This document shows positions 11,871 through 22,504 of a stretch of 23,268 nt of DNA, piece by piece (position 1 is the stretch's first letter; each line of letters begins with the position of its first letter). Below the pieces are notes generated by a model. The model was not told where the DNA came from. It did not search any database and saw nothing but the letters and a program-made list of their open reading frames with translations. The translations under genes were made by a program, and so were the position numbers. This DNA comes from a virus, in IMG/VR virus record IMGVR_UViG_3300031957_000828, positions 1 through 23,268 of that record. The stretch is one strand, 5' to 3'.

Positions 11871-12551
11871 CTAAATTAAAGACATTTGTGTTTCTTTTAT
11901 TAACCACTTTTTCCAACATTGAACTGAATCAATTCTTCTAGCCATTCTCTCTGGACAAACTTGTTGCCCTATGTTTTTAAAATTTCTAGCGACATTTGTA
12001 CTATCGGCAGAAGCAAAAGGCCAAACATCTCCACATAAAGAAAGCCCTCGCATCATATGTACCCAAGGTCGAAAACCTCTTTTAGTTAATTCATTCCAGG
12101 CTTCATCACATCTGTTAGCCCAAACATCAGAACCAACTTGCCAATATTGCCCTGAAGAACCAAAACAAAACCTTGGATAATTGTCTGCAATTTCAAGTAA
12201 CCAATCTATAGATAAATTCATATGCCAAACAGGAGCAGAAAGTTCTTTAGAGTAAGGCCATTGAATCATTAACTTTTTTTGATCTTGTATCGTCCCACCA
12301 ATTATATCGGGTATTACCCCCCAATGCGGGGGATAAAGAAACTCCTCAACCCAAGATATAAAACCTTTTAAATCAAATTCTTTACCTTGGGTGTAAGAAG
12401 TAAACGCACCATTATCCCACATAACAGATTGAGCATTTTTAAAACACCATTCTGCATTAAATGGATTAGCATAACTAACACAGAAATTTTTCCCAGCCAT
12501 CTTTAACAGTTCAACGTTGGGTGTTATGGGAGTGCCGTGATAATGAATCAT
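11871..12551 (-). CDS. dpdA: DpdA-like DNA guanine transglycosylase (7-deazaguanine insertion)
   Basis: A 226-residue protein of the TGT-like superfamily in its phage DpdA form. Such enzymes exchange guanine in DNA for a 7-deazaguanine base such as preQ0. It starts MIHYHGTPITP; the HGTPITP opening is what I remember of phage DpdA proteins. Barrel motifs follow: WDNGAFTSY (D46), GVIPDIIGG (D82), WHMN (H110), FGSSGQYW (130-137), HMMRG (165-169) and FASADSTN (D183). Conserved aspartates are expected as catalytic acid/base and nucleophile; which is which is not visible here. The bacterial tRNA-TGT zinc site is absent. The start at 12551 overlaps the transporter stop as ATGA; an upstream ATG at 12566 would add five residues. 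It is AT-richer than the polymerase and helicase genes around it. A tRNA substrate cannot be excluded, but the family and phage context favour DNA. Confidence 0.8.
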   Translation of the reverse strand: MIHYHGTPITPNVELLKMAGKNFCVSYANPFNAEWCFKNAQSVMWDNGAFTSYTQGKEFDLKGFISWVEEFLYPPHWGVIPDIIGGTIQDQKKLMIQWPYSKELSAPVWHMNLSIDWLLEIADNYPRFCFGSSGQYWQVGSDVWANRCDEAWNELTKRGFRPWVHMMRGLSLCGDVWPFASADSTNVARNFKNIGQQVCPERMARRIDSVQCWKKWLIKETQMSLI

Positions 12552-13003
12552 TTTAAAGATAACCAAACAATAACTGACGCAATCATTTTAGAAACAACCA
12601 TTACAAAAAATGCTGTCCAACCAAAAAACCCTGCAACAACCAAGAACACAAGACTATCCACTGGAACAGATATTGCAGAAGATAAAAGTATTCTATCTTT
12701 CATAGGTCTTTTTGTTTTAGTGTACACAGCCCAATCTGTTGCCTCTGAAACTATAAAGGCTAAAGCGGATGCCATCGCTATAAACGGATCTGCCATTAAG
12801 TAACTAAGTAAAATACCAACTGCCATTGGAACCCAAACATAATGACCTAAATCTTTTTGTGCGTAGTCTCTTAATATAAAAACAGCACCAACTAAAAATG
12901 TCATTGGCGGTAAAGCTGCACCAAACACAAACCAAGGTTCTATAACAGAAAACCCATAATTAACAGCAACAATTGCCGCTACATATAATAAAGCATATTT
13001 CAT
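12548..13003 (-). CDS. yhhQ: YhhQ-like queuosine/7-deazapurine precursor transporter
   Basis: A 151-residue, strongly hydrophobic inner-membrane protein with about six predicted transmembrane segments (roughly 3-22, 26-46, 55-71, 74-90, 106-124, 127-148). The motifs FILRDYAQ (42-49), SEATDWAVY (86-94) and SVPVDSLVF (112-120) match the YhhQ/VUT family (old name DUF165), which imports queuosine precursors such as preQ0 and preQ1. It is shorter than most bacterial YhhQ proteins, which are usually above 200 residues. The start at 13003 is preferred because AGAGG lies about eight bases upstream; an ATG at 13027 overlaps the helicase gene. Its stop overlaps the DpdA start (ATGA), which ties import of the base to its insertion. 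Confidence 0.85.
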   Translation of the reverse strand: MKYALLYVAAIVAVNYGFSVIEPWFVFGAALPPMTFLVGAVFILRDYAQKDLGHYVWVPMAVGILLSYLMADPFIAMASALAFIVSEATDWAVYTKTKRPMKDRILLSSAISVPVDSLVFLVVAGFFGWTAFFVMVVSKMIASVIVWLSLK

Positions 13004-13016
13004 TTTATTTTCCTCT

Positions 13017-14546
13017 TCATATCTCATACCTGTATTTCTTGATTGATTCTAAAATGTGTAAGTTCTTCTTGGTTCTTGTAACGCCCACATAAAACGCACG
13101 ATGCTCATCGTCTGGATACTTGCTCTCAGTACAAGCCTTCGTTGATCCTGTATAAACTAAACAGTTGTCATCCTCCCCACCCTTCATCGCATGAAACGTA
13201 GACAACTTAATGCGAGGCTTATCCATAATACTCTCCCCTGATTCCTCAATAACCTCAATGTATAACCTATCATCTCGACCCAAGTTCATTATAGAAAAAC
13301 AACTACGATCTATCGGTGCCTTCATCCCATAGTCTTGAACCAAATCGTTATAGCTTAACGAACCATCCTCCGGTGCTGCCTCCAACAAGGTACTCGAACC
13401 TCGCTTCACAACCGCACCGTCTCCCTGTTTGGGCACATTCTTATACAGGTTCTTAATTAAATGCACCCCAACGCGCTCACCTCCCTGCAAACGACGCCAT
13501 ACCTCTATGCCCTCCGCTACCTCTGGCTTTATACTAGGCCTTCCTTTTATGCTGTACAAAAACCCAAAGTTCCTAATCTGATCAGCGAAGTCTGATACGT
13601 AGCTGTTGGTTCGAGCCATGATAGTCCACGAACCTTGCTCTAATGGAACACTTCCAAGACTGTTGTGCCAAGTAACCGAGCCTTGTTCTTTAGCTGGTGC
13701 AAACTCCTTTATCTTCCTAGTACGTATGCGTTTAACAATACGCTTGGAAAGATTAAACACTGCCACTGGCATTCGATAAGACTTGGTAAGGATTTTTACT
13801 GTATCAGAAGATTCCAAAAACTCGTTCACATCAACCCCTGTCCAACGATGTATTGCTTGGTCGTCATCCCCTGCAAGGTAAACCTTCTCTGCTCTCGTAG
13901 ACATGCGATCAACCATCTCCCACTGCACTGGCGTTAAGTCTTGTGCCTCGTCAACGATCAGTAGATCCAAGTAAGGTGGTTCTGCTATATCAATATAATT
14001 CTCTATGAAATCTGCAAAGTCTACCTTCTGCATCTTGCTCTTGTATTCTTGCAGCTGTTTCTCAACCTGTTCTAATTTAGAAAACCAAATTGTATAGTTC
14101 GCCGCTTCGTTATACTCCTGCTCCAACGAAATCCTTCGAGACCGAGCACGAGACACCATATCAAGGTACATTTTTCCTGACCCACCAATCTGAACTTGAG
14201 GCAATCCATCGTCAGGAGACACTCCATCCTTGCTGTCAATAACAACACCCAACAACTTACCCAACGCTTTGTAGTCTTTGGCCTTCATCAAATCGTCTGA
14301 CTGCAACCCAAGTCCCCAAAAGGCTGTGGCATGTAGCGTTTTAAAGTGGGGCAGCTCCTTCTCTGTTAAAGAAAACTTGGAGCAAGCACGTTCAATAGCT
14401 TCGGCAATCGCCTTACGTGTAAAAGAAATAAAGGCAATCCTAGAAGGATCGCCCCCATTGTCTAAATACTCTTGGATAATCTCCATGAGTGTGTAAGTCT
14501 TACCACAACCAGGTGGCCCAAAGATAATGGTGCTATTCTTTATCAT
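13017..14546 (-). CDS. UvrD/Rep-like superfamily 1 DNA helicase
   Basis: A 509-residue ATP-dependent helicase. Motifs in order: Walker A GPPGCGKT (residues 10-17), motif Ia-like FISFTRKA (39-46), motif II DEAQD (199-203), motif III GDDDQAIHRW (226-235), motif V STFHAMKGGE (449-458) and motif VI VGVTRTKKNLHIL (487-499). All are intact, so an active 3'-5' translocase is expected. It is shorter than UvrD (about 720 residues), as is common for phage versions with reduced 1B/2B domains. The ATG lies inside the end of the AlpA-like gene (14-base overlap) with AGAGG eight bases upstream. It probably serves as replicative or recombination helicase next to the primase. Confidence 0.93.
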   Translation of the reverse strand: MIKNSTIIFGPPGCGKTYTLMEIIQEYLDNGGDPSRIAFISFTRKAIAEAIERACSKFSLTEKELPHFKTLHATAFWGLGLQSDDLMKAKDYKALGKLLGVVIDSKDGVSPDDGLPQVQIGGSGKMYLDMVSRARSRRISLEQEYNEAANYTIWFSKLEQVEKQLQEYKSKMQKVDFADFIENYIDIAEPPYLDLLIVDEAQDLTPVQWEMVDRMSTRAEKVYLAGDDDQAIHRWTGVDVNEFLESSDTVKILTKSYRMPVAVFNLSKRIVKRIRTRKIKEFAPAKEQGSVTWHNSLGSVPLEQGSWTIMARTNSYVSDFADQIRNFGFLYSIKGRPSIKPEVAEGIEVWRRLQGGERVGVHLIKNLYKNVPKQGDGAVVKRGSSTLLEAAPEDGSLSYNDLVQDYGMKAPIDRSCFSIMNLGRDDRLYIEVIEESGESIMDKPRIKLSTFHAMKGGEDDNCLVYTGSTKACTESKYPDDEHRAFYVGVTRTKKNLHILESIKKYRYEI

Positions 14547-14754
14547 AGATCTTACCTCTTGGCCGAGAGTTGACCCAATCCTCTATCTCTGTAAGCACCC
14601 ACCTACTGGCAGTACGCTTGTTGGACTCGTCTCCTAGCACTAAGGGTTGAGGGAAATCCCCTGCCTTAGTCCATTTGTATATTGCTGATGTAGATACGCC
14701 GAGCAGTTCAGCTACCTCCGACACACGCAACAGTCGATTAGAAGGGGATGTCAT
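14533..14754 (-). CDS. AlpA/excisionase-like HTH DNA-binding protein
   Basis: A 73-residue protein with one winged-helix MerR/AlpA-type domain: LLRVSEVAELLGVSTSAIYKW (helix-turn-helix, about residues 8-28), then GDFPQPL and a short wing ending WVLTEIEDWVNSR. GGAGG lies six bases before the ATG. The gene starts inside the last codons of the primase gene (17-base overlap), so the primase tail codons are read in two frames. In phages this fold serves as transcription regulator, excisionase or replication accessory; with no integrase visible, a regulatory or replication-initiation role within the operon is more likely than excision. Target site unknown. Confidence 0.85.
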   Translation of the reverse strand: MTSPSNRLLRVSEVAELLGVSTSAIYKWTKAGDFPQPLVLGDESNKRTASRWVLTEIEDWVNSRPRGKIYDKE

Positions 14755-16270
14755 CTGAAACCTCCGTGATGTTTAAGTCTATTACTTCCTCCTCGAAAGC
14801 AGGAACCCACCATACTCGAAGCGTGGATCTCTTTCCATCCTCGCGATTTATATTCTGATGCCCATGAGCCTCCGCTCCATTGTTTAAACTCTTCAAGGCT
14901 TCTTGGACTTGTGCCCTGTTGTAGAAAGTAAAATGTCGGTTGTGCAAATATAACATAAGACCAGAGATTGTGAACCTTGTTAATCCGTCCTCGGTCCAAG
15001 GCTTTCCCATCTCTAGTTCTTCGGGCACCATAGCCTTTATACGGCTCGTACAGTAGGCTCTAAGGTGTTCCTTAAACTGACCCACCATCGTGAGCTCTTC
15101 GGGCACCTCAAGGTACGTAGCACCCAACATTAGATTACTGACCGTGGCTTGCCATGTCTGTGCTTTAACTGTTGGTGGCATAATATTAATCTGCTCCATG
15201 CAAGCACGTTGCCAAAGCGTTTGGTTCTGTAGCTGTTCTGTTGAAAGCTGCACACGCTTCCCACCTACATCCATGAAGTACAATCGAGGCTCAGACAAAA
15301 GAGTTGTAAGCCCACCCATCTGTGGCATGTCTGGTTGATCCCCACCAACACCGTACTTCTTGGTCTTGCAAATCTCCTTATCGCAGTAACTCTTGAAGGG
15401 TTCCTGCTCACAGGTATAAAAGTATTCTTTCTTGTTCAGTGATTTAACTAGGTTTGTTACCTCTGTCGCTGGCAACGGATCCGCACATAGCGTTCGATTG
15501 ATGTCTTCAAACTTTGACACCCAGTCATCGGGGTTCTTCATCCGGCAATATACACCGCACATAAACAACGTTTTGTTTCGCTCCTCGGATATCTGACCCT
15601 GGCTCGTGATGTGTTGAAGGCAGGGCGGTCCATCTGTAAAATACTTTCTTGGTCCACCTAGCTGCATGGACTCCAACTGGTTTAAGGCTACACGCTCAGA
15701 CTCAATCAGGTTTAAGAACTTGTCTAGCTCTAAGGCCTCACCCTTTGCATTGAACCCATAGCGCATGGTTTCTTCTGCTTTAAAGTATGGGATGTTAATA
15801 AAGTTACCAACATCCCCTCGCTCTGCTAGGATTGAATCTTGTTTGGGAAAGATCTCGCACCCAGAAAACCCTAGTGCAATAGACATCTCCGTCAGGTACT
15901 CACGTATAACGGAGGCCTGTTCGTATTCTTTTAGAAATAAATATAAGTGTGCCCCACCGGACTTGGATCTACAGTGAACCAAGGGGAGCTTTAATTTATA
16001 TATCTTTTGTGTAAGAGATTTATGATCTAGGTCATACGTGTCAATGTCCAGTGCTCCAAACTTGCACATGTTATTTTCATTGATCGGTATAGCACCCACA
16101 CCTTGAACACCATCGATGTGTTCTTGTATCTTCTCAACAGTCATAGGCTCTCGAACGATCCGGCTATCTGCTTCAGCCTTTCCGTTCCTTCCTACTCTTC
16201 CAACCGTCGTCGTACCGTGTGCCACGGTTGACCCTTGAAAAGCTTTCATAAGTCTTTCTGCATAAGACAT
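14738..16270 (-). CDS. Archaeo-eukaryotic-type primase (TOTE primase-polymerase-like)
   Basis: A 510-residue protein. The catalytic AEP core is visible: metal-binding D75-I-D77 (FGALDIDTYD), the SGGAH motif S104-H108 (CRSKSGGAHLY), FPKQ at 141-144 and the GNFINIPY sugar/NTP-site motif at 155-162. This arrangement is the one I know from TOTE-conflict-type primases. A Cys cluster (YTCEQEPFKSYCDKEIC) around residues 292-308 may bind zinc. The C-terminal part is probably all-helical and unassigned; no helicase Walker motif is present, so unwinding must come from the separate UvrD-like or SNF2-like proteins. The last residues, DDIPF, copy the SSB-type tip. AAGGAT precedes the ATG. A terminator sits just upstream. 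Confidence 0.85.
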   Translation of the reverse strand: MSYAERLMKAFQGSTVAHGTTTVGRVGRNGKAEADSRIVREPMTVEKIQEHIDGVQGVGAIPINENNMCKFGALDIDTYDLDHKSLTQKIYKLKLPLVHCRSKSGGAHLYLFLKEYEQASVIREYLTEMSIALGFSGCEIFPKQDSILAERGDVGNFINIPYFKAEETMRYGFNAKGEALELDKFLNLIESERVALNQLESMQLGGPRKYFTDGPPCLQHITSQGQISEERNKTLFMCGVYCRMKNPDDWVSKFEDINRTLCADPLPATEVTNLVKSLNKKEYFYTCEQEPFKSYCDKEICKTKKYGVGGDQPDMPQMGGLTTLLSEPRLYFMDVGGKRVQLSTEQLQNQTLWQRACMEQINIMPPTVKAQTWQATVSNLMLGATYLEVPEELTMVGQFKEHLRAYCTSRIKAMVPEELEMGKPWTEDGLTRFTISGLMLYLHNRHFTFYNRAQVQEALKSLNNGAEAHGHQNINREDGKRSTLRVWWVPAFEEEVIDLNITEVSDDIPF

Positions 16271-17119: not shown

Positions 17120-17679
17120 TATGCTTTCCTCCTAATTTCAGCTGCGTTGGCTATAAATGCCCCGAACATATCGAGGTCAATTGGTTTTCCTTCCGTTACA
17201 CGCTCCTTAACAAATGCTTTTAAGGTGCTCGGATGGATGTGGGTCTTTGATACTGGATCAAAACCCTTGTCTTTCAGGATACCAACGACGTCTCCTGCAA
17301 CATTGTCTTGGCCTTTGCCAAAAGATACAGTGATATCATTCTTTATAATATCATCGAGCTTCTGGGTTCTTAACCATTCATAGGCCTCTTCTCTACGACT
17401 AACAGGTATCGATGCATGCACCATCATCTTGCGTTGTACAGTCAAACCGTCAACATCAAGACGGTCAATGCCCATCTCATCCATTAATCCTGGTATACTC
17501 TCTACCGAAAGTCTGTGCTTTTCTTTCTTCAGACTCTTAAGTAAAGTATCTGCGTCCTCAATCTCACATTCAACTTTTCGGAGCTTTCGGACTAGGTCGC
17601 TCAACGTGCGACCTGTATCTGTGTTGATGTCTGCGACAGCAGCTTGTTCATCGAACAGGTCTTCAAATATATCTTCCAT
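17119..17679 (-). CDS. Coiled-coil phage replication-module protein, function unknown
   Basis: A 186-residue protein that opens the replication operon. Residues about 20-62 are a charged heptad-type coiled coil (LVRKLRKVECEIEDADTLLK and onward). The second half contains IPGLMDEMGIDRL, a run on SRREEAYEWLRTQ and the segments IKNDITVSFGKGQ and HPSTLKAFVKER, which I remember as a conserved pattern in many phages next to ssDNA-binding proteins, without a proven role. AGAGG lies about nine bases upstream of the ATG. It is coupled to the SSB-like gene by TAATG. A structural or loading partner of the replication machinery is a reasonable inference; no enzyme motif is visible. Confidence 0.75.
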   Translation of the reverse strand: MEDIFEDLFDEQAAVADINTDTGRTLSDLVRKLRKVECEIEDADTLLKSLKKEKHRLSVESIPGLMDEMGIDRLDVDGLTVQRKMMVHASIPVSRREEAYEWLRTQKLDDIIKNDITVSFGKGQDNVAGDVVGILKDKGFDPVSKTHIHPSTLKAFVKERVTEGKPIDLDMFGAFIANAAEIRRKA

Positions 17680-17755
17680 AAGGTTATCCTCTTCAGGGTT
17701 GTGGTTTAAGAACTACTGTGGTAGTCCATGTATGTGGACAATAGTGGAGATATGT
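17680..17755. promoter_or_regulatory. Divergent control region with two small palindromes
   Basis: The 76 bases between the starts of the replication operon (minus) and the SNF2 unit (plus) must hold the start signals of both. Two perfect five-pair inverted repeats lie almost end to end: ACTAC-TGTG-GTAGT at 17712-17725 and GTCCA-TGTATG-TGGAC at 17724-17739, sharing GT. Their spacing suits operator sites for a dimeric regulator. No convincing sigma70-type -35/-10 pair was found in either direction, so the promoter may be phage-specific or activator dependent. Confidence 0.5.
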
Positions 17756-19234
17756 ATGAGTGTCAAATATAAAAATAAATTAAAGTTTAAATTAAAACCT
17801 TACGACCATCAACTTAAAGCATTAGACAAAGGACTTACTCGAGTAGAGTACGGGTTCTTCATGGAGATGGGTACAGGGAAAAGTAAAGTCCTGTTAGATA
17901 ACATAGGCTATTTGTTTTTAGTAGGTCAAGTAAACTTTGCTTTAATCATCGCACCCAAGGGCGTGTATCGTAACTGGGTGTCTAAAGAAATACCAGAGCA
18001 CATGTCTGATGACGTGCCCCATCGTGTAATTAGATGGGTAGCTTCTCCCAATAAAAAAGAACAGGCAGAGATGCGCTCGGTCAAAGAACCTTTTGCCGGA
18101 CTAACCATCTTTGTTATGAATGTTGAAGCGTTCTCCTCGATCAAAGGCAAGAACGCAGGGGATTGGATGGGAAACAACCTGGGTGGAAATGGTCTTATCG
18201 CAGTGGATGAAAGCACCACAATTAAAAACCACAAGGCCAAACGAACCAAGGCTCTATTAAAGATAGCTTTAAAGTTTAAGTTCAGACGATTGTTAACGGG
18301 ATCCCCCATAACTAAATCACCTCTAGATATATATAGTCAAACAGAGTTTCTTCGAGCAGGGCTTCTTGGATACGATAGCTACTATGCTTTTCAAGGCCGC
18401 TACGCTGTATTGCAAAAGAGAAAAATGGGTGCCGCTGCATTCACGCAGGTCATCGGATACCGAAACCTGGACGAACTATCAGATAGAATAGATATGTTTA
18501 GCTACCGCGTACTTAAAAAAGACTGCCTCGACCTACCCGAAAAGATATACACAGTTCGATACGTCGGCATGTCCGATGAGCAGTTTAAATACTACGAGCA
18601 AATAAGAAACCACGCTATGGTTCTCTTTGACAATGGTGAAATGACCACGGCTCCTGCTGTAATTACCCAACTTCTACGATTGCAACAGATACTTTCTGGA
18701 CATTTAAAAACTGATGACGATGAAATGATTACGTTCCCTTCATCTCGGCTCAATGCCTTACAGGAAATAATTAATGAGTACGATGGTAAAGCAATCATCT
18801 GGTCTCGATTCCGTCATGACATAAGGCAGATCACCGAAACTCTAAACAAAACCTTTGGTTCAGGGTGTGCCGCCTCATACTTTGGCGATACATCTGATGA
18901 TGAACGTAACCAAATCGTGCAAGACTTTCAGAATCCAAACCATCCACTAAAGTATTTCGTGGGTAATCCAGCAACCGCAGGGTACGGCTTAACTTTGACC
19001 GAAGCTAATCTTGTGGTATACTACGCCAATGACTTTAATCTGGAAACTCGTATCCAGTCAGAAGACAGGGCCCATCGTATCGGTCAACACAACCCTGTTA
19101 CCTATGTAGATCTAATCAATGAAGGCACGATTGACGAACGAATAGTCAAGGCTCTTCGAGCCAAGATAGATATAGGTGCAAAAGTATTAGGAGAGGAAGC
19201 AAGAGAATGGCTAACACTGAAACCAAAAAAGTAA
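17756..19234 (+). CDS. SNF2/SWI2-type superfamily 2 helicase-translocase
   Basis: A 492-residue protein from the ATG at 17756, chosen because GGAG lies six bases upstream and the conserved domain begins at once; the frame is open for another 109 codons upstream, but that part is antisense to the divergent gene. Motifs: Q-like YDHQ (16-19), Walker A MGTGKSK (38-44), motif II DEST (151-154), motif III LTGSP (180-184) and motif VI QSEDRAHRIGQ (434-444), the last being the SNF2-family signature. Two RecA-like lobes and no accessory nuclease or chromatin domain. In phages such proteins remodel replication forks or displace proteins from DNA. It is the only early-type gene besides its partner on the plus strand. 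Confidence 0.93.
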   Translation: MSVKYKNKLKFKLKPYDHQLKALDKGLTRVEYGFFMEMGTGKSKVLLDNIGYLFLVGQVNFALIIAPKGVYRNWVSKEIPEHMSDDVPHRVIRWVASPNKKEQAEMRSVKEPFAGLTIFVMNVEAFSSIKGKNAGDWMGNNLGGNGLIAVDESTTIKNHKAKRTKALLKIALKFKFRRLLTGSPITKSPLDIYSQTEFLRAGLLGYDSYYAFQGRYAVLQKRKMGAAAFTQVIGYRNLDELSDRIDMFSYRVLKKDCLDLPEKIYTVRYVGMSDEQFKYYEQIRNHAMVLFDNGEMTTAPAVITQLLRLQQILSGHLKTDDDEMITFPSSRLNALQEIINEYDGKAIIWSRFRHDIRQITETLNKTFGSGCAASYFGDTSDDERNQIVQDFQNPNHPLKYFVGNPATAGYGLTLTEANLVVYYANDFNLETRIQSEDRAHRIGQHNPVTYVDLINEGTIDERIVKALRAKIDIGAKVLGEEAREWLTLKPKK

Positions 19235-20109: not shown

Positions 20110-21175
20110 ATACTTTCTCCTTGCTGATCTTAGGTTGATGATAACTTTTTTGAGTTCCAAATGCAGGATGTCCTGCCCAATACCCTTCTATCCAAGTCCA
20201 CCATAGCGCACGATGTCTTAAAATCATTGCTTGGGGTCTACGTTTTGACATAGGATGATGTTCTTCAGCCAGTCTCCAATGACCTCGACGGAAGTGTAAA
20301 GCTTTCTTGTGAAATCCGGCATCATAGGGCTCTTTGGCAACAACAGGTTTGTCAATGTTCCAAGAGATCTTTGTCCAAGCATCAGTGGCTTTTCCAAAGC
20401 CACGGCTTGCATTGCGTCTTTGCTGCCTTGTCCCTGCCAGAGTTCGTGTGACGTATCTTGTTTGGTTGATCGTCATAACAAGGAACGCAAGACTGGACAT
20501 CATTTCAATATGCTCCTCGTCACTCCAACCTTGGAACTCTTCGCTTACTCCAAAACCTGGTTTACCTATCTCCCAAGAGCCCATTGGTATTACAGGCCAG
20601 ATACCTCCTCCAGCTTTTTTCATTGATTCCGTGTTATCATACACTAAAAAAGTATGTGTCTTATCACTATTAAAGCGGTCACGCATCAGCAAAAAGTTAT
20701 GTTTTGCATCGGGAATTTCTATAGATAGAAACATATTGCTAGCACATAAGGTGCAGTCTGAAGGAATGGGTATTGCTTCCTTCCTATCATACAAAGCATC
20801 CTTTGCGTGAATGCCTGCGAACACAAACAGTTCTTCACTAATTTCAAAAGGTTGTGCGTATCTAATAGCATCCGCTTCAATCCAACTATCTTCATCGTCA
20901 CGTTCCGTTTTCATAAAACTTAAACCTGGACTGTTTTCTAAATTACGCATCGCTAATTTTAAAGTGCCTTGTTTTTGAAGCTCATTTACACTATCAATAA
21001 TATTTAAAACTCCTGTATATTTTTCAATTACACCAACATTTTTATTGTTGCGTAAGTTAGGTCGAAGTTTCAAAAGGTTTTCTATGGCATCAGTTGATCC
21101 CAACTCTCTCATTTCTCCTTTGTCACTCATATAACTTATGGGATTATTGATATCTAGGTTTTGTTTAATCTTCAT
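20102..21175 (-). CDS. Phage protein of unknown function with RGHWR-type C-terminal block
   Basis: A 357-residue soluble protein. The N-terminal 90 residues are polar; residues 95-250 form a mixed alpha/beta region with DCTLCASNMF (near 138-147) and an Ala/Leu-rich helix (EHIEMMSSLAFLVMTINQTR). The C-terminal quarter is rich in His, Arg and Trp: HFRRGHWRLAEEHH, then ILRHRALWWTWIEGYW and AGHPAFG. I remember similar RGHWR-containing endings from many unrelated phage hypothetical proteins, with no known biochemistry; the density of His/Arg suggests nucleic-acid or metal binding. It starts on the methyltransferase stop (ATGA) with GGAGGAG upstream, so the two are co-translated. Confidence 0.75.
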   Translation of the reverse strand: MKIKQNLDINNPISYMSDKGEMRELGSTDAIENLLKLRPNLRNNKNVGVIEKYTGVLNIIDSVNELQKQGTLKLAMRNLENSPGLSFMKTERDDEDSWIEADAIRYAQPFEISEELFVFAGIHAKDALYDRKEAIPIPSDCTLCASNMFLSIEIPDAKHNFLLMRDRFNSDKTHTFLVYDNTESMKKAGGGIWPVIPMGSWEIGKPGFGVSEEFQGWSDEEHIEMMSSLAFLVMTINQTRYVTRTLAGTRQQRRNASRGFGKATDAWTKISWNIDKPVVAKEPYDAGFHKKALHFRRGHWRLAEEHHPMSKRRPQAMILRHRALWWTWIEGYWAGHPAFGTQKSYHQPKISKEKVYG

Positions 21176-22284
21176 TTCAGCTCCTCCTTTATTGCTAATC
21201 CTATGTTCATTGCTATCTGTGGCACAATCGCGTTGCCTAGTCCTTTAAGTCTGTCCACCCTTCGGGGTATCCCATGAGCCACTCGACCCACGTCGGGTTC
21301 AACTGACCACCAGTTTTCGCCTGATTGTCCGTATGCTGAACTGCTACATCCAGAGTGTCCCAACTTACTTTGCCGTTCCGAATCCGACCGCCTTGATAAC
21401 CGCCCTTGTAATCCCTTGTCGCTGGTGTCGGCCACATCTTCTCCGCGTGGTTCACCGCGTCTCGCAGCTTCACGCCCCACCGAACTCCGTCCTTGTTCTT
21501 CCGACTGAACGTTCCGTTCTCCAACTCCACGTCCTGCGCTGTTCCCCCCTCCACGTCCGATGCCGTTGGGGTCGGCCAGTTCTTGACGTAAAGATCCATC
21601 GTCTTCTCGTCCACTTGCTCTCGAAGATTGCTCGGTCTGGCTCTGCCCTTGCGATGACCCTCTTGCATCTTCTTCGTTGACTCCTCCGACCTTGGCGGTA
21701 GATGATCCATCGTGTTGGGCGTTGCCCACATCTCTTTCCCCCAACTGCCCTTGTCTCTGTTCACCATGCTCGGTGACATCTGATTGGCTGTCGCTGTTGG
21801 AGTGTGCAACAATCCAGAGTCTGTCTCTTCGATGGGGAGCGTTGACACCGCAAGCTGGAACAACAAACGTCCTTGTGGAGTAGCCTTCGGCTTCCAAGTC
21901 AAGCAACACCTGGTCGAGACCCAAGGCAATGTGACCATGAACGTTTTCGAAAACGCACCAAGTCGGTCTTTTTTGTGCAACAATTCTAAGGATGTACGGC
22001 CAGATGTGGCGGTCATCTTCAAAGCCTTTTTGCCTCCCCGCGACGGAGAAGGGTTGGCAGGGGTATCCCGCTGTGAGGATATCGTGTTCGGGAACAAGTC
22101 TTTCTGGGTCATTAGCTAACTCCTTTACATCTGCAGCTATGGGTACATTTGGAAAATTCTTTGCGAGTATCTCACGACACCAAGGCTCAGTGTCGCAAAA
22201 CAATATAGGGGTGGACAACTGTGCCCACTCAAAACCGAGACTAAAGCCCCCGATCCCCGAACATAGGTCAACGTGTCTAAGCAT
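21172..22284 (-). CDS. C5-cytosine DNA methyltransferase
   Basis: A 370-residue enzyme that methylates cytosine C5 in DNA with S-adenosylmethionine. Motif I DLCSGIGGFSLGF (6-18), motif IV GYPCQPFS with catalytic C76, motif VI FENV (112-115, E113), motif VIII RRDRLWIVA (152-160) and motif X GLGNAIVPQIAMNIG (348-362) are all intact. Residues about 161-325, where the target-recognition domain belongs, are unusual: low complexity, rich in Ser, Gly, Gln, Arg and Asp. The same bases hold a second long ORF. The start at 22284 overlaps the upstream gene by eight bases; longer in-frame starts lie within that gene. No restriction endonuclease is visible, so it is probably a solitary protective methyltransferase. 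Confidence 0.93.
   Translation of the reverse strand: MLRHVDLCSGIGGFSLGFEWAQLSTPILFCDTEPWCREILAKNFPNVPIAADVKELANDPERLVPEHDILTAGYPCQPFSVAGRQKGFEDDRHIWPYILRIVAQKRPTWCVFENVHGHIALGLDQVLLDLEAEGYSTRTFVVPACGVNAPHRRDRLWIVAHSNSDSQSDVTEHGEQRQGQLGERDVGNAQHDGSSTAKVGGVNEEDARGSSQGQSQTEQSSRASGREDDGSLRQELADPNGIGRGGGNSAGRGVGERNVQSEEQGRSSVGREAARRGEPRGEDVADTSDKGLQGRLSRRSDSERQSKLGHSGCSSSAYGQSGENWWSVEPDVGRVAHGIPRRVDRLKGLGNAIVPQIAMNIGLAIKEELK
21237..22112 (-). CDS. 291-codon ORF nested in the methyltransferase gene (overprinted gene candidate)
   Basis: Same strand as the methyltransferase, one base out of phase, wholly inside it. It has its own Shine-Dalgarno (AAAGGAG, seven bases before ATG). The product looks like an ordered protein, unlike the host frame: SGRTSLELLHKK (42-53), LTWKPKATPQGRLLFQ (72-87), then repeated xPTPxAxD-like units: LLHTPTATA, MWATPNTMDHLPPRS, NWPTPTASDVEGG, MWPTPATRDYKGG, and a C-terminal QLNPTWVEWLMGYPEGW. 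From memory, near-identical motifs (ATPNTMD..PPRS, WPTPTASD, NPxWVEWLMGFPxGWT) recur in ORFs beside or within phage methyltransferase genes. Part of this recurrence could be a by-product of conserved methyltransferase codons at both ends, but that does not explain the middle. Function unknown. Confidence 0.55.
   Translation of the reverse strand: MTQKDLFPNTISSQRDTPANPSPSRGGKKALKMTATSGRTSLELLHKKDRLGAFSKTFMVTLPWVSTRCCLTWKPKATPQGRLLFQLAVSTLPIEETDSGLLHTPTATANQMSPSMVNRDKGSWGKEMWATPNTMDHLPPRSEESTKKMQEGHRKGRARPSNLREQVDEKTMDLYVKNWPTPTASDVEGGTAQDVELENGTFSRKNKDGVRWGVKLRDAVNHAEKMWPTPATRDYKGGYQGGRIRNGKVSWDTLDVAVQHTDNQAKTGGQLNPTWVEWLMGYPEGWTDLKD
22120..22126 (-). promoter_or_regulatory. Internal Shine-Dalgarno for the nested ORF
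   Basis: AAAGGAG on the minus strand, inside the methyltransferase codons for KEL, seven bases before the ATG at 22112. It is a better ribosome site than the one in front of the methyltransferase itself (AAGAG, seven bases). Confidence 0.7.
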
Positions 22285-22504
22285 TGTTGATCTCTTCATA
22301 GTCCTTTGGACTAACATCCATCCAGTAAGGATTAGTGATAAACTCCCTGGTGGTAATGCTCTCCTCAAGCGTATCGATAAACCTATGATACGCAATCTCT
22401 TCAGCTTGCTCCAAGGTCTCCGCTTCAATCGCATCATAATACCGAGAGACCGGATGCTTACAACAATTCTGGTTCATCTCTACTTTAATATTCCACTCAG
22501 CCAT
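22277..22504 (-). CDS. Small protein upstream of the methyltransferase, function unknown
   Basis: A 75-residue protein. The start at 22504 follows GAGGAG by seven bases and gives MAEWNIKVEMNQNCC; longer frames upstream lie in the adjacent gene. After a strand-like start it has a helix (EAETLEQAEEIAYHRFIDTLEE) and a Trp/Tyr-containing end (NPYWMDVSPKDYEE). The pattern, with a beta strand, a Cys-containing loop and a helix with EAETLEQAEEIA, resembles small phage proteins that I know only as hypothetical. It overlaps the methyltransferase start by eight bases, and the upstream 49-residue gene ends eight bases inside it. Confidence 0.7.
   Translation of the reverse strand: MAEWNIKVEMNQNCCKHPVSRYYDAIEAETLEQAEEIAYHRFIDTLEESITTREFITNPYWMDVSPKDYEEINNA

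Follow-up and report, generated by a model that had tools for sequence, protein, structure and literature searches.

The window analysed here, a 23,268-nucleotide stretch of viral DNA, contains a C5-cytosine DNA methyltransferase (MTase) gene within which a second frame of the same strand is open over 291 codons. Is this inner frame a gene, and what would its product have to do with the enzyme encoded around it? The original prediction was that of a gene within a gene, in which an 876-base inner ORF has its own ribosome site and the two products divide the constraint between them. Both ORFs were found at the place indicated, the inner one with its ATG at 22112 and its stop ending at 21237 on the minus strand, and the AAAGGAG element does lie seven bases before the inner start (Table 1). 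Relative to the MTase, the inner ORF is read in the +1 frame (offset 325, mod 3 = 1). The longest outer ORF extends over 21172-22437, and its far end overlaps an upstream 102-aa ORF. The MTase start supported by homology lies at ~22284 (MLRHVDLCSGIGG...), so that ~79% of the MTase gene is overlapped.

Table 1. Positions of the outer gene, the inner gene and their parts in the window
Feature	Position	Strand	Basis
Outer gene: C5-cytosine DNA methyltransferase, ~370 aa	21172..22284	-	PF00145 2e-39, phrog_363 2e-75, alignment, AF2 core against M.HhaI
Inner gene: overprinted 291-aa protein, phrog_1008 family, proposed specificity (beta) subunit	21237..22112	-	
Outer motifs I-VIII, catalytic core, PCQ/ENV/RRDR motifs	21787..22284	-	pLDDT, alignment to canonical C5-MTases
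Outer-frame linker in the expected place of the target-recognition domain	21235..21738	-	Open, mostly without amino-acid constraint
Outer motif X helix GNAIVPQIAMNIGLAIKEEL	21175..21234	-	pLDDT 78-95; wobble freedom back directly after the inner stop
Shine-Dalgarno AAAGGAG of the inner gene	22120..22126	-	7 bases before ATG
Inner N-terminal domain (TATSGR...GSGL), over MTase motifs IV-VIII	21813..22010	-	Dual constraint
Inner array of four (H/A/P)TP modules, proposed target-recognition modules	21303..21809	-	Module census, shuffling between relatives
Single inner modules	about 21809-21729, 21728-21579, 21578-21435, 21434-21303	-	
Inner motif-IX-like C-terminus LNPTWVEWLMGYPEGWTD	21249..21302	-	Profile pairing (weak score); position in split relatives

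When the MTase's own synonymous codons were shuffled, the inner frame contained a mean of 8.9 stops and was open in none of 20,000 shuffles; in relatives, the third frame averaged 16 stops over the overlap and was open in 0 of 248 unique loci. The presence of the inner frame was then followed in relatives, the sampled loci being those closest to the queries and different scans partly sharing contigs. Eighty IMG/VR loci were fetched with the MTase N-terminus alone, which lies outside the overlap, and the inner frame was found in all of the 79 that were testable; in bacterial genomes, the inner C-terminus was encoded in another frame of the MTase in 80/80 loci. The inner frame of relatives is thus not one that is often broken by stops. 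Two canonical plasmid MTases, used as controls, gave no inner match. The inner start codon is conserved among relatives, and a 5-base Shine-Dalgarno (SD) core precedes it in 67% of 244 loci, versus 30% in outer-synonymous shuffles.

Nor is synonymous variation of the MTase equally high inside and outside the overlap: at conserved residues, the entropy of 4-fold wobble positions is 0.89 bits inside versus 1.74 bits outside (p = 2e-6), and it is near zero in EPDVGRVAHG and ~1.85 directly past the inner stop. The constraint on each frame was further resolved with 35 pairs of loci, each sequence being used once, as rates at MTase codon positions 1/2/3. The MTase-only parts on the 5' and 3' sides gave.077/.039/.260 and.056/.046/.291, respectively. 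The overlap with motifs IV-VIII gave.075/.034/.133, that is, a wobble rate of.133 versus.26-.29 outside. The region expected to hold the target-recognition domain (TRD) gave.172/.060/.039, and the motif IX region.129/.037/.042. Read in the inner frame, the TRD rates rank position 3 > 1 > 2, which is the signature of an ordinary gene. Twenty-one pairs of bacterial-genome loci repeat the pattern (TRD.295/.101/.101; position 3 of the flanks.44 and.40), as does a further viral set whose contigs are partly shared with the first. The constraint is therefore divided as had been proposed: the MTase frame bears it at either end, and the middle of the overlap is governed by the inner frame alone.

The outer frame is nevertheless open across the TRD region against expectation. 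Shuffling of inner synonymous codons predicts 5.2 outer stops there and a 0.9% probability of an open frame, and yet it is open in 86/86 loci, a set that leaves out split and frame-broken loci; the outer protein must therefore be read through to motif X. The composition of the outer linker is mostly dictated by the inner frame. Both frames are thus open beyond chance, the inner one under purifying selection of its own and the outer one held open.

The outer protein matches PF00145 (2e-39), phrog_363 (2e-75) and TIGR00675, and possesses motifs I-VIII with PCQ and ENV, the SAM fold, and a motif X consisting of GNAIVPQ and a C-terminal helix. The PF00145 match stops at residue 253/421, and in profile comparison with canonical C5-MTases the outer protein aligns over motifs I-VIII only (probability 100). 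In the AlphaFold2 (AF2) model, built on a 35-row alignment, residues 1-167 mostly have a pLDDT above 80-90, residues 184-351 form a ~165-residue linker of pLDDT <50 almost without secondary structure, and residues 352-371 form a helix of pLDDT 78-95. Superposition of the model on M.HhaI yields Z ~22, with ~190 of 327 residues aligned, in motifs I-VIII and X. The original prediction had described the MTase residues at the TRD place as shapeless, and the linker is indeed rich in Ser, Gly, Gln, Arg and Glu; over its final ~20 residues (EPDVGRVAHGIPRRVDRLKG), each of the two frames is conserved. Since the model goes from the core through a disordered linker directly to the motif X helix, the outer protein has no TRD. 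TRD and motif IX are both absent from this chain, residues 184-351 being disordered and mostly unconstrained, and the outer protein alone is therefore an incomplete C5-MTase.

The inner protein matches phrog_1008 over residues 10-223 (3.7e-36). PHROGs labels this family 'DNA methyltransferase', a label that misnames the inner protein because the catalytic motif is absent from it. Searches of Pfam (E up to 1) and NCBIfam gave no family match, and PDB sequence searches with inner profiles gave nothing meaningful. The AF2 model of the inner protein alone is of low confidence (pLDDT 61, pTM 0.35), and its comparison with PDB structures gave unrelated matches with Z of 4.2 or less; a poor model may simply reflect that this subunit takes up its fold against a partner. 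The inner C-terminus, LNPxWVEWLMGYPxGW, pairs with canonical motif IX, weakly (E 0.025, probability 1.9%, in a profile comparison with canonical MTases that matched at motif IX only). In two of the split-locus ORFs described below, the C-terminus together with motif X matches the IX-X part of phrog_116 with E ~1e-4, although much of this score may come from motif X. The motif-IX-like sequence of split relatives stands directly before motif X, as in phrog_116. Pfam did not detect motif IX in split-type C-termini, and detected motif X alone in 1/9. In loci L013, L015, L145-L147, L191 and L199, another motif-IX-like match lies outside the inner ORF, mostly past the inner stop, which would fit a tandem duplication of the C-terminal segment.

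Between the N-terminal domain and the motif-IX-like end, inner proteins carry 1-7 modules of median length 42 residues that start with W(P/A)TP (867 modules were counted in 268 proteins). Four spaced PTP/TPN..D units had been predicted in the window; there are four, three of which match W(P/A)TP, the first reading LHTP instead. Among the 5,935 module pairs that are at least 60% identical, which are not independent pairs, 4,500 occupy different array positions or belong to arrays of different length. Loci L096 and L038, for instance, agree in 96% of the 480 bases that precede the TRD and in 100% of the bases that follow it, but have only one of three modules in common, at different positions.

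A natural variant of the locus bears on the relation between the two products. In ~25 split loci (L066, L068 and about 23 more), the outer frame comes to a stop a short way past motif VIII, while the inner ORF, whose N-terminal domain still lies over motifs IV-VIII, continues in frame through ...LNPDWVEWLMGY... into EPD..RV...RLKALGNSIVPQIA, that is, into motif X. The outer-frame text of the TRD region is therefore dispensable, and the inner protein physically belongs with the rest of the MTase.

Taken together, these data make it very probable that the locus encodes a two-subunit C5-MTase like M.EcoHK31I, with the specificity subunit overprinted on the catalytic subunit; the inner product is most likely the missing half of the same enzyme, comprising motif IX and the target-recognition part. 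This identity, the split variant and the M.EcoHK31I precedent were not foreseen in the original prediction. The outer frame would give a catalytic subunit made of motifs I-VIII, the disordered linker and motif X, and the inner +1 frame, from its own ribosome site, a specificity subunit made of the N-terminal domain, the WPTP modules and an equivalent of motif IX. Outer and inner products would assemble, the inner protein supplying the small domain that lies between motifs VIII and X in single-chain enzymes. The WPTP modules would act as TRDs, so that the choice of methylated sites would depend on how many modules there are and of which type, and the enzyme would mark phage DNA against host restriction. 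I infer that the inner frame is translated in vivo, that a heterodimer forms, that the modules are TRDs and the C-terminus a motif IX, that the role is one of anti-restriction, and that the array is multispecific.

Other accounts of the inner ORF have to be weighed against the two-subunit enzyme. That the inner ORF is no gene but a by-product of MTase codon usage and composition has practically no chance of being right: its conservation is admittedly in part a shadow of the outer frame, with which it has the DNA of conserved MTase motifs in common, but no shuffle kept it open, the wobble positions are nearly fixed inside the overlap and free past the inner stop, outer position 1 changes fastest in the middle, and split relatives keep the inner frame open where the outer one is closed. 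A chance ORF is thus ruled out by the shuffles and the codon-position tests. Programmed +1 frameshifting after motif VIII, which would join the catalytic half to the inner TRD and make inner initiation irrelevant, would also explain inner constraint in the middle, and the frames do differ by +1 throughout. It is nonetheless very improbable, and was rejected, since inner constraint begins upstream, over motifs IV-VIII, where the MTase wobble rate is already halved, and since the inner ORF has a conserved start and SD of its own. Moreover, the frameshift product would be devoid of motif X, because motif X is in the outer frame of overprinted loci.

Harder to dismiss, though still unlikely, is that the inner ORF is translated into a protein unrelated to the enzyme, perhaps one with a regulatory or anti-restriction function, merely sited in the MTase gene. 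The inner protein has no catalytic motif, Pfam family or confident fold, as this would have it. However, the stretch that encodes the inner protein is precisely the one in which the outer protein has neither TRD nor motif IX, MTase motif X is fused to the inner protein in split relatives, and inner and outer frames occur together in every testable locus. The two-subunit reading can be extended, with less assurance but on balance favourably, to a large phage and prophage enzyme family whose catalytic gene would hold, in its +1 frame, a whole specificity half (motif IX and an array of swappable target-recognition modules). The same DNA would then evolve for catalysis in one frame and for specificity in another, the outer copy of the array being reduced to a disordered linker selected for nothing but openness, and a sister lineage would have partly resolved the overlap by moving motif X to the inner frame.

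How does this arrangement compare with known systems? M.EcoHK31I is an E. coli restriction-modification enzyme acting on YGGCCR, and its beta gene is reported by Lee et al. (1995) to lie inside the alpha gene in another frame. The small-subunit gene of the present family is nested out of frame, as is reported for EcoHK31I. In M.EcoHK31I, motifs I-VIII and X are in the larger polypeptide and motif IX is in the smaller one, and the predicted TRD is in the larger subunit (PMC3404938). The larger subunit thus has motifs I-VIII and X in both cases. In contrast to its predicted TRD, the codon evidence places that of the present family in the inner frame; furthermore, this is a phage and prophage family with arrays of TRD modules and a split variant. 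The E. coli loci found by similarity are prophage members, none of which could be tied to EcoHK31I.

M.AquI, whose specificity is CYCGRG, offers a second comparison. It consists of two polypeptides, motifs I-VIII being on the alpha chain and motifs IX-X, along with a portion of the variable region, on the beta chain (PMC3404938). The split relatives resemble it in having motif X on the second polypeptide, whereas the window has motif X on the outer frame and an overlap that covers most of the gene. Multispecific phage C5-MTases of the M.SPRI and M.phi3TI type carry arrays of ~40-residue target-recognition modules before motif IX. The arrays of short modules before motif IX are alike, but in those enzymes a single chain, read in a single frame, bears both modules and catalytic motifs; the present modules are putatively multispecific. 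In the ShiLan domain, an out-of-frame HNH endonuclease lies in a phage methylase as an inserted homing element with no detectable ribosome site (PMC11855218). Here too a second protein is encoded in another frame of a phage methylase gene; however, it has a ribosome site, and catalytic motifs shared by all relatives lie within the overlap. A ShiLan-type insertion was rejected, there being neither HNH nor insertion. No description of the present overlap as a two-subunit enzyme was found in the open-access literature.

Annotated relatives include Paenibacillus larvae phages, in which both overlapping frames are annotated as cytosine methyltransferases, the second 'DNA cytosine methyltransferase' being the counterpart of the inner frame. 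Others are Phage C72C1, Lacticaseibacillus phages, Cronobacter phage JC01, Klebsiella, Salmonella and Escherichia phages, and phage-plasmids. The inner family was found in 12/369 genomes drawn from one class, that of a Pseudomonas locus. Among the loci examined, none had the inner family without an overlapping MTase. A single-frame fusion (motifs I-VIII, modules and IX-X in one ORF) was sought in all loci and not found, the exceptions, L075/L109/L307 and L269, having the look of frame breaks. L075, L109 and L307 belong to one contig; there, both frames are swapped at one point by a break of a single base, so that both genes are broken together, which reads as a sequencing error or decay.

Several loci deserve separate mention. 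The chromosome of one Roseovarius MAG holds five identical copies, L213-L217, and in every copy a TAG interrupts the inner frame inside the profile match; they read as a repeated prophage or an assembly artefact. L379 (2398-3157), in the E. coli PT62 prophage, belongs to a divergent subfamily with a 245-aa outer MTase and a 251-aa inner ORF that starts 4 bases past the outer start and ends beyond the outer stop, so that the overlap is nearly complete. In L376 (107-2135), and also in L378, an intein-like insert of ~340 residues sits at the catalytic PCQ of the outer MTase, and the inner frame is also there. At L381 (2456-3658), in E. coli prophages, RefSeq splits the outer MTase into two 'incomplete' pseudogene fragments despite the open frame, which is probably an annotation artefact of the unconstrained middle.

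Should the two-subunit reading hold, the family would be a widespread case of overprinting of two interacting enzyme halves, with a clean division of constraint and the split loci as a natural control. It would offer a system in which an exchange of specificity modules in one frame demands of the other no more than that it remain open. The reading would explain the apparent absence of a TRD from many phage C5-methyltransferases, the possible failure of such an MTase when it is expressed alone, and the tendency of annotation pipelines to give the inner frame a wrong name or to treat the outer frame as a pseudogene.

Elsewhere in the window, positions 11871-13027 (minus strand) encode a queuine tRNA-ribosyltransferase-like protein (phrog_887, 7.5e-40), and this gene adjoins one for a YhhQ-type queuosine-precursor transporter (PF02592; TIGR00697 below cut-off). 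Judging from these similarities, the phage may also carry a pathway of 7-deazaguanine DNA modification (DpdA-like). The same replication region encodes a SNF2-type helicase (17669-19234, plus strand) and a primase (14741-16270, minus strand) that is akin to the AEP of TOTE conflict systems.
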